Shown: positions 61,263 to 62,993 of the stretch, piece by piece
Layout: each line of letters opens with the position of its first letter
Position numbering within the stretch: the stretch's first letter is position 1
DNA from: an uncultured Prevotellaceae bacterium
GTDB lineage: Bacteria > Bacteroidota > Bacteroidia > Bacteroidales > Bacteroidaceae
Reading direction: 5' to 3'
NCBI GenBank assembly: GCA_947165505.1
Contig: CAMVAT010000015.1
Span: 1 to 64,000, forward strand
DNA length: 64,000 bases
Made by a program: the position numbers and the translations under genes
Notes under the pieces: generated by a model
Told to the model about the DNA's origin: nothing
Databases searched by the model: none
The model's input: only the letters and a program-made list of their open reading frames with translations

Positions 61263-61287
61263 TCCGCATACATCTTAGCAAAACAGT

Positions 61288-61325
61288 TCCCCCCCGAAAG
61301 CACGGATGCTTTCGGGGGGATTGTT
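61288..61325 (+). terminator. Terminator after the beta-barrel gene
   Basis: CCCCCCGAAAGCA-CGGA-TGCTTTCGGGGGG, a 13-bp stem, followed by ATTGTTTGT. Confidence 0.88.
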
Positions 61326-61429
61326 TGTAATTGTTGAAACGGTTACATCGTCTGCACGACATGATAGTATTACTGTGGGCACAAAGATACACGTTTTTTT
61401 TACCACACGCCATTTGTCCCTGAAAAAAT

Positions 61430-61460
61430 TTTGCAGTTAGCAGAAAAAGCCCTACCTTTG
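61430..61460 (+). promoter_or_regulatory. Promoter of the candidate structured RNA
   Basis: TTTG (61430-61433), 19 bp, TACCTTTG (61453-61460). A strong consensus match with no ORF directly downstream. Confidence 0.75.
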
Positions 61461-61465
61461 CCCCG

Positions 61466-61792
61466 TTCTATGGCCGAAGCCTGCCTGACGGTGGGACAAG
61501 GGTGTAGGACCTATATATAGGAAAGGCGTTTACTAAAACGCTTTGTTCTTGACTTCCGGGAATCTGGCAGTTCCAAAAAGTCAGTCGAGACACAAAGCAA
61601 CGGTAGATGCCCATGGGTATGTTATATCCTCATGCGCACGACTCTATGCAGGCACCCAGGTGCATGCTTGGGTCTGTGCAGGTATATACATATCGGCGTG
61701 GGCTTCGGCGTTGCTCGTTCTGACTGACTGGGCATGCCAGAGCCTCCGGAAGCGGAACGGGTGACAAAGTAAGACTCCCACGCTTCTTTTTT
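61466..61792 (+). ncRNA. Candidate structured non-coding RNA, about 325 nt, family not recognised
   Basis: A transcript from the promoter at 61430-61460 to the T run at 61787-61792 would have its two ends paired: GAAGC (61476-61480) and GTGGGA (61491-61496) with TCCCACGCTTC (61776-61786). Internal hairpins include AGGCGTTT-ACTA-AAACGCTT, a stem closed by GACTT...AAGTC, TGCAGGCACCCAGG with CTTGGGTCTGTGCA, and GGCATGCC. There is no credible ORF. I looked for tmRNA, RNase P, SRP and 6S signatures and did not find the conserved cores I know, though Bacteroidales versions can be divergent. The next gene starts about 70 bp after the end. Confidence 0.6.
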
Positions 61793-61860
61793 ATATCATA
61801 GCATCATACTTTTTCAACCAATAGAGAGTGCGGGAGCCACCTTTATATAATGGTTCCCCT

Positions 61861-62679
61861 ATGAGTAGAAAATCAACAAAGGCTTTTAAACGAATTGTCA
61901 ACGGTTACATTCCCTATTTCCTTGCCAAAATTTTCTGTCCGAATTCAGAAAAAATGATTTTCTATAGATACATCGTCCAGCACGGCGATGCGCATCACCT
62001 ATTCCTTTTCAGCCATGAATATGACGGATTTGAAGTCGAAACGTACTATGACGAGGCATGTGGACTGCCATACGTCGTTTTACCAGAAACAGAAAAGCGT
62101 CTTTATTTCAAGCGTGAAATGAAAAAGGAGAAGATAAACGGCCTGTTCAAAGCCTTGCTCATGGAGCAAGACCCTCGGTCGCCACACAGGTATTTTGACG
62201 ACCTCAAAGAGTTTAAAGACAGAATCCTACTTGACGTCGGTGCTGCTGAGGGCATCCTGTCGCTCATGGCCATCGAGCAAGTGCGACACGTGTACCTCTT
62301 TGAATGCGAAGCGGAGTGGGCGGAAGCCTTACGAAAGACCTTCGAGCCGTGGCAGGAAAAAGTGACCATCGTGCCGAAATACGTGAGCGACCACAACGAC
62401 GGCTCGACAACCACACTTGACGCTTTTTTTCATGACACTCCACACCCTGACCTGTTCATCAAAATGGACATCGAGGGGATGGAAAGAAGAGCCCTCGACG
62501 GCGCCCGGAAGTTATTTTCTGAAAAAGGGAATGTCGCCTTTTCCATCTGCACGTACCACGAGAAAGATGACTACCACGTGATATCCTCGTTTCTCAACGA
62601 ACATGGCTGTACATATAGCAACGCCACCGGCTATTGGTCGCACAGAATCAAGAGCATCATGCTCAGAGGGCACAATTAA
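61861..62679 (+). CDS. FkbM-family SAM-dependent methyltransferase
   Basis: A 272-residue methyltransferase probably acting on a sugar hydroxyl of a polysaccharide or small molecule. The SAM motif is ILLDVGAAEGILSL and the family motif IKMDIEGMERRALDGARKL follows. The ATG at 61861 (MSRKSTKAFKR) is preferred to the ORF-track start. Codon use is more AT-rich than in the flanking genes, and no other polysaccharide genes are nearby, which suggests that it was acquired alone. Confidence 0.85.
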   Translation: MSRKSTKAFKRIVNGYIPYFLAKIFCPNSEKMIFYRYIVQHGDAHHLFLFSHEYDGFEVETYYDEACGLPYVVLPETEKRLYFKREMKKEKINGLFKALLMEQDPRSPHRYFDDLKEFKDRILLDVGAAEGILSLMAIEQVRHVYLFECEAEWAEALRKTFEPWQEKVTIVPKYVSDHNDGSTTTLDAFFHDTPHPDLFIKMDIEGMERRALDGARKLFSEKGNVAFSICTYHEKDDYHVISSFLNEHGCTYSNATGYWSHRIKSIMLRGHN

Positions 62680-62814
62680 CAGAATTAACGTGTGCAGGCA
62701 GATAACAAACTACACATGCAGAAAGGAAATTACGATGCCATAAAAGACAAAGCTGTCTTCTGAACATATCACTTAAATGTTTGATTGACAGTCACAAAGA
62801 TAATCAATTATTTT

Positions 62815-62905
62815 CATTCCGCAAGATATTTTTGCAAAAAACTGCATCATTCCGCAAGATACTTTTGCAAAAAACTGCATCATTCCGCAAGATACTTTTG
62901 CAAAA
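62815..62905 (+). repeat. 33-bp tandem repeat, 2.8 copies
   Basis: Unit CATTCCGCAAGATACTTTTG followed by CAAAAAACTGCAT, at 62815, 62848 and 62881 (partial). Each unit contains a TAnnTTTG -7-like box. No spacers, so not a CRISPR array. Confidence 0.9.
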
Positions 62906-62922
62906 GACATCCACAATAACTT

Positions 62923-62993
62923 GTAGGGACAGGGCGTGCCCTGTCCGAAAGCAAACAGTGATAAATAGCGGACAGGGCGTGCCCTGTCCCTAC
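62923..62993. repeat. REP-1 palindromes in a head-to-head pair
   Basis: Two copies of the palindrome GGACAGGGCGTGCCCTGTCC, the first preceded by GTA and the second followed by CTAC-type ends, 26 bp apart, so the whole can fold as one long hairpin. The same arrangement is at 52815-52890. The 62680-63263 gap has no gene; beyond 63000 nothing was recognised. Confidence 0.88.

Follow-up and report, generated by a model that had tools for sequence, protein, structure and literature searches.

The 64,000-nt stretch of Prevotellaceae DNA analysed here (the window) carries, at 61430-61792, a segment that the initial annotation had put forward as perhaps a new structured RNA, about 325 nt long and equipped with a promoter and a terminator of its own. 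This raises two questions: whether the RNA is a new one, and whether it would act as a free-standing molecule or as the leader of the gene that follows it. The parts of the element described below, and the gene that follows it, lie on the + strand.

Identity, boundaries and distribution of the element

The Rfam search that had been recommended (Rfam 15, 4227 models) gave no clear match that would make the RNA a known one: none reached the gathering threshold in 61430-61792, none appeared there at E values up to 5, and no family matched 20 relatives from loci in other genera. A match to tmRNA was sought with ARAGORN and Rfam, and one to RNase P, SRP or 6S RNA with Rfam covariance models, in all cases with a negative result, in agreement with the earlier failure to recognise the cores of these four RNAs. 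A known Rfam RNA was rejected as an identity, the only candidates being sub-threshold matches to mir-30 and to the trypanosome snoRNA TB11Cs3H1 on a neighbouring GC-rich hairpin (61273-61337). These matches are due to a strong symmetrical hairpin at 61289-61320 (CCCCCCGAAAGCA...TGCTTTCGGGGGG), which probably serves as terminator for the gene upstream, that of an outer-membrane protein. The family was not described by name in the literature searched, and the papers that contain its motif strings do not concern Bacteroidales. The RNA would be of a known kind, a structured leader, and belongs to a family for which no description was found in Rfam or in the literature searched.

The promoter that had been claimed is present: TTTTG (61429-61433), a 19-nt spacer and TACCTTTG (61453-61460) form a promoter of the Bacteroidetes sigma-ABfr type at 61429-61460, matching the published consensus (PMC7366714). 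The pattern TTTG-N19-TAnnTTTG is conserved across the 188 unique copies of the element; of 180 family members, 138 have TAnnTTTG where it is expected, as compared with 17 of 508 control windows (Fisher p = 5e-86). Transcription would start at about 61461-61467, and the structured leader RNA, which is supported by its fold, its 188 unique relatives and its covariation, would span 61461-61792, ending at the T-run. At that end GAAGCG (61749-61754) can pair with CGCUUC (61781-61786), and UUUUUU follows (61787-61792), giving a terminator-like structure at 61749-61792. The stem found family-wide is GUGGGA/UCCCAC (61752-61757/61776-61781; columns 275-280/299-304 of the alignment), which is imperfect in the window copy; it covaries, with a z of 12.1 in the swap test described below. 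The terminal T-run likewise stood up: a run of at least five T closes 130 of the 152 non-redundant members and appears in 2-3% of control windows. A covarying stem followed by a conserved U-run resembles an intrinsic terminator or attenuator, at which transcription may stop.

The ORF check, which covered ∼330 nt of 61430-61792, found no long ORF within the element, as the initial annotation had stated. A leader peptide was rejected too: the AUG triplets near 61610-61622 are not kept as a frame, and ATG is changed to ACG in many of the aligned copies.

Conservation of the element, far from ending with this strain, extends across the order. A blastn search of 150 genomes of the same genus detected relatives in 64, the longer matches being ∼68-80% identical. 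The last 101 nt of the element were also built into a model (R1) that scores sequence alone and so undercounts distant members. With this model, four copies were recovered from the genome to which the window belongs, and 58 of 100 sampled genomes of the genus proved to carry copies, up to 10 each. In a sample drawn from the order Bacteroidales, copies turned up in 63 of 393 genomes, and in 32 of 204 genera. Among 393 genomes of the phylum none was found outside the order, the only two matches both being members of it. An exact 23-base motif occurs in records named Prevotella, Bacteroides, Phocaeicola, Paraprevotella and Hallella, and also in records named Parabacteroides, Muribaculaceae and Paludibacteraceae. 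Culturable carriers of named copies include Paraprevotella clara YIT 11840, Paraprevotella xylaniphila YIT 11841, Xylanibacter rodentium and Phocaeicola oris. Two copies (L093 and L148) lie in metagenome-assembled genomes named Pseudoflavonifractor and Clostridiales, and are probably Bacteroidales contamination of those assemblies. One viral contig (IMGVR_UViG_3300021319_000137, L203:200-900) carries a complete copy before a reading frame for an EF-Tu-like GTP-binding protein.

Covarying helices and overlapping pairings

The several internal hairpins that had been noticed belong to a strong internal structure: the 332-nt + strand has a minimum free energy of −144.9 kcal/mol, 7.2 standard deviations below that of dinucleotide shuffles (z = −7.2). 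The helices were examined in an alignment of the 188 unique copies (Neff about 166 of 188), and by a swap test in which the pairing inside one copy is compared with that obtained when partner strands are swapped between copies. The covariance analysis that the initial annotation had called for revealed a very strong covarying structure. APC-corrected covariation reached 354, and all four Watson-Crick pair types were seen at the single column pairs 101:274, 102:273 and 105:270. In 12 of 14 helices the swap test gave z values from 4 to 36, the other two helices being nearly invariant and hence uninformative. These swap tests include no model of the phylogeny, and the swap and covariation controls leave some sequence relatedness; slid pairings scored far lower than the real ones. 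A separate RNAalifold run on 23 copies yielded 48 pairs, 17 of them with double changes. Over ten helices G-U cells outnumbered A-C cells by ∼9:1 (1965 vs 211), which identifies the transcribed + strand as the one that folds. Together with the lack of an Rfam match and the distribution across the order, this covariation upholds the proposal of a structured RNA that is new, measures about 325 nt and has a promoter and a terminator-like end.

The strongest helices of the element form a rod joining its 5′ arm with its 3′ arm. The core of this rod (61552-61753) is made of three helices, namely ACUUCCGGG (61552-61560) with UCCGGAAGC (61745-61753; columns 99-107/268-276; swap test z = 35.6), UCUGGCA (61563-61569) with UGCCAGA (61735-61741; columns 110-116/258-264; z = 18.3), and AAGUCA (61578-61583) with CUGACU (61724-61729; columns 125-130/246-251; z = 15.6). 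The rod surrounds an apical region (61623-61693) that is variable, being absent or very short in some copies, and that is closed family-wide by a conserved stem, UAUGU/ACAUA (z = 9.1). An inverted duplication at the DNA level was considered, as one half of the element resembles the reverse complement of the other, and was rejected: the resemblance reflects nothing more than the complementarity of the rod's two arms.

The pairing of the two RNA ends (GAAGC/GTGGGA with TCCCACGCTTC), from which an abundant housekeeping or catalytic RNA had been suspected, did not survive. Among 126 members the 5′ segment paired with the 3′ arm no better than swapped partners did (z = −0.8), and GAAGC and GCTTC occurred together in only seven of the 126. 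The 5′ end folds on itself instead, into a hairpin, P1 (61465-61510; GUUCUAUG 61465-61472 with UGUAGGAC 61503-61510; cognate vs swapped z = +13.4 in 126 members), and the 3′ end has its own terminator-like stem. A free-standing housekeeping RNA with paired ends was rejected on this ground.

Each arm of the rod also takes part in local stems, which, like the terminal stem, pair better within than between copies (z = 4 to 12). In the 5′ domain these are AAGGCGUU (61523-61530) with AACGCUUU (61537-61544; z = 4.8), GGCGUUUACU (61525-61534) with GGUAGAUGCC (61602-61611; z = 9.6), and UUGAC (61549-61553) with GUCGA (61584-61588; z = 8.0); the local stem columns of this domain are 73-82/148-157, 71-78/84-91, 96-100/131-135 and 107-109/119-121, and the stems (61523-61611) partly overlap, that is, they are alternative pairings. 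In the 3′ domain (61695-61784; columns 232-242/278-288, 217-224/300-307 and 252-255/265-268) they are GGCGUGGG (61695-61702) with CCCACGCU (61777-61784; z = 4.0), GUUGCUCGUUC (61710-61720) with GAACGGGUGAC (61755-61765; z = 8.6), and GGGC (61730-61733) with GCCU (61742-61745; z = 6.3). Several columns, for example 99-100, 275-276, 278-280 and 300-304, have two supported partners, and the column triple 99/276/303 changes jointly, reading ATA in 115 copies and GCG in 24. The overlapping helices thus each have covariation support of their own. Furthermore, the loops of two of the local hairpins, UCUGGCA and UGCCAGA, are perfect complements. These observations suggest two competing states, the rod and a pair of kissing hairpins, between which the RNA would switch.

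Pairing of the element with the region before the start codon

The initial annotation ended with the T-run; the conserved feature extends beyond it into the leader of the next gene, whose start codon is at 61861. An ORF in the same direction lies no more than 400 nt downstream of 180 of the 188 copies, the commonest distance past the T-run being 60-80 nt, and contig ends cut short most of the remaining eight copies; these ORFs were called in the relatives by simple rules, and many of the relatives are metagenome assemblies. The leader strand AGACUCCC (61772-61779) pairs, in the family, with the loop of a hairpin that precedes the start codon. In 144 non-redundant copies the pairing of AGACUCCC with GGGAGUCU scored 16.4 for cognate and 13.5 for swapped partners (z = 14.3), a difference equalled in none of 2000 permutations. 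The GGGAGUCU partner is located ∼37 nt past the end of the element and ∼24 nt before the AUG, and its flanks pair better than shuffled ones, which places the motif in a hairpin loop. In the window copy the partner at the family position is GGGAGCC (61832-61838, within the region 61832-61858), and the helix is reduced to 5 bp, CUCCC (61775-61779) with GGGAG (61832-61836); here GGGAGCC can alternatively pair locally, with GGUUCCC (61852-61858), in a hairpin that immediately precedes the AUG.

An abundant housekeeping or catalytic RNA fits poorly with this arrangement. The end pairing is not conserved, several divergent copies occur per genome, nearly all of them stand just upstream of a codirectional gene, and a helix reaches the region before the start codon; these properties point to cis-regulatory leaders. 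A stand-alone multicopy small RNA that acts in trans on other messages and merely happens to lie upstream of genes would account for the promoter and T-run and for the several copies per genome, and such multicopy families are known in Bacteroides (e.g. FopS; PMC11697453). Nevertheless, an independent small RNA needs neither the tight spacing to a codirectional start codon (mode 60-80 nt) nor a covarying helix that crosses the T-run to reach ∼24 nt before the AUG, and we regard this explanation as improbable. The chief reason for taking a cis-regulatory leader as the best explanation is the covarying helix that reaches the start-codon region; the position of the element, its promoter and its terminator-like end are further reasons. 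We therefore consider it probable that the element is a bistable, cis-acting leader or attenuator RNA of an undescribed family that controls the following gene. The window copy itself, with its helix of 5 bp and its imperfect version of the family's terminal stem, counts against this reading.

In the mechanism proposed, the leader would be transcribed from its own promoter and would control the next gene, in the window that for an FkbM-type methyltransferase. After the 5′ hairpin, the 5′ and 3′ domains would adopt either one long rod or two hairpins with the complementary loops UCUGGCA and UGCCAGA, and the 3′ strand of the terminator-like stem (AGACUCCC) could alternatively pair with the hairpin loop GGGAGUCU ∼24 nt before the start codon. 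The choice of fold would be set by a signal, which may be a metabolite, a protein or the pace of transcription, and would most likely determine whether the polymerase stops at the U-run or reads through it, whether the start-codon region is accessible, or both. Since GGGAGUCU is transcribed after the U-run, it comes too late to prevent termination by the same polymerase, so a termination switch would need the upstream pairings. A variant of the leader reading dispenses with termination altogether: the fold over the hairpin before the AUG would control ribosome access in a full-length message. The helix joining the leader to that hairpin speaks for this variant, and Bacteroidetes are described in PMC3155529 as generally lacking Shine-Dalgarno sequences; the stem and U-run, however, are strongly conserved, as expected of intrinsic termination, and are needless for translation control alone. 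Control of translation only is thus possible, if rather doubtful.

Downstream genes and comparison with known systems

The gene under the window copy (61861-62679) encodes a 272-aa FkbM-type methyltransferase (PF05050). Further downstream in the window lie three tandem 33-nt direct repeats (TCATTCCGCAAGATACTTTTGCAAAAAACTGCA) at 62814-62912 and an inverted repeat at 62923-62993, made of two copies of the palindrome GGACAGGGCGTGCCCTGTCC, which resembles a dispersed intergenic repeat. Across the family, 135 downstream proteins fell into 93 Pfam families in all. The commonest was the BspA-type LRR_5 (15 proteins), followed by BACON_2, PEGA and DUF2971 (four each) and AbiH (three); LRR_5 is not among the listed Pfam families of 135 upstream neighbours, used as a control. 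By a crude signal-peptide/membrane test, 72 of 146 downstream proteins were exported-like, as compared with 29 of 161 upstream neighbours (Fisher p = 7e-9). The genes under the leader family thus appear, from their predicted products, to be diverse and enriched in exported and BspA-like LRR proteins; Pfam and PADLOC scans for a common function gave no single theme. Such a diverse set would be unusual for a single-ligand riboswitch and points to no clear ligand. Some copies stand before apparent multi-gene operons. Genes for small secreted proteins that resemble one another follow the element in more than one genome (L069, L070 (G365), L018 and L165), which suggests that a portion of the gene set is conserved. 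In the genome of the window, a second copy (L065; G000:C10, 7725-8010, minus strand) stands before the gene of a von Willebrand-type protein; phosphatase-like and kinase-like proteins are encoded next, in what was judged by eye to be a TerY-P-like arrangement; a third, weaker copy lies ∼13 kb from it.

Large hairpin-like elements that adjoin unrelated genes in many copies and with a patchy distribution could also be recombination sites or fixed parts of a mobile gene cassette (an attC-like single-strand hairpin, or a MITE). The excess of G-U over A-C (1965:211) argues against this, as it indicates selection of the transcribed strand as RNA rather than of the non-transcribed strand, and so do the conserved promoter and T-run and the helix tied to the start codon. 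In addition, no array of regularly spaced elements was found in 12-17 kb contexts, in which few neighbouring genes were identified. We deem a cassette origin highly improbable.

Among known systems, riboswitch and attenuator leaders are of the general kind closest to the element. They, too, have a long 5′ leader that is structured and starts from a promoter of its own, a terminator-like stem and U-run, overlapping covarying helices, and a place just before the controlled gene; the element differs from them in its size (∼325 nt), in having no Rfam match, in its helix past the U-run and in the great diversity of the genes downstream. Two general marks of leader RNAs were found in it, namely a location on the same strand near a start codon in most copies and compensatory changes in the structure. 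Leaders controlled by the NusG paralogues UpxY and LoaP are known mainly from long polysaccharide or biosynthetic operons; like the element they stand before accessory or surface gene clusters, whereas the operons that it precedes are short and unrelated. FopS and GibS are multicopy sRNAs of Bacteroides thetaiotaomicron, and so resemble the element in being a multicopy RNA family with a terminator in Bacteroidales (PMC11697453). FopS, however, consists of a single-stranded 5′ seed and a terminator hairpin and acts in trans, while the element is large, has many helices and is linked to the gene after it; identity with FopS was rejected by comparing this architecture with the published FopS consensus (PMC11697453). 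The main text of Fremin and Bhatt (2021; PMC8040213) presents unnamed candidates for structured RNAs in Bacteroidetes, among them palindromes of 80-132 bp and candidates that neighbour TPR or TonB genes. Those described there are much shorter than the element; it is by these main-text descriptions that they are set apart, and a fragment of the element may already figure, without a name, in the candidate lists of that study.

It is rare to find a new structured RNA that exceeds 300 nt and has several helices with strong covariation, and the present one would belong to a class of leader now missed by annotation pipelines. The element is common in Prevotella and its relatives, where the products of the genes behind it include BspA-like surface proteins and secreted lipoproteins, together with some proteins that look defence-related (AbiH, DUF2971). 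We tentatively propose that it represents an order-wide class of large bistable RNA switch, alternating between a rod and two kissing hairpins plus a helix to the start codon, through which one common signal might act on heterogeneous accessory, largely cell-surface genes of Bacteroidales. The structure model of the leader opens the way to direct tests, and the signal, once found, would reveal a regulatory circuit shared across the order.
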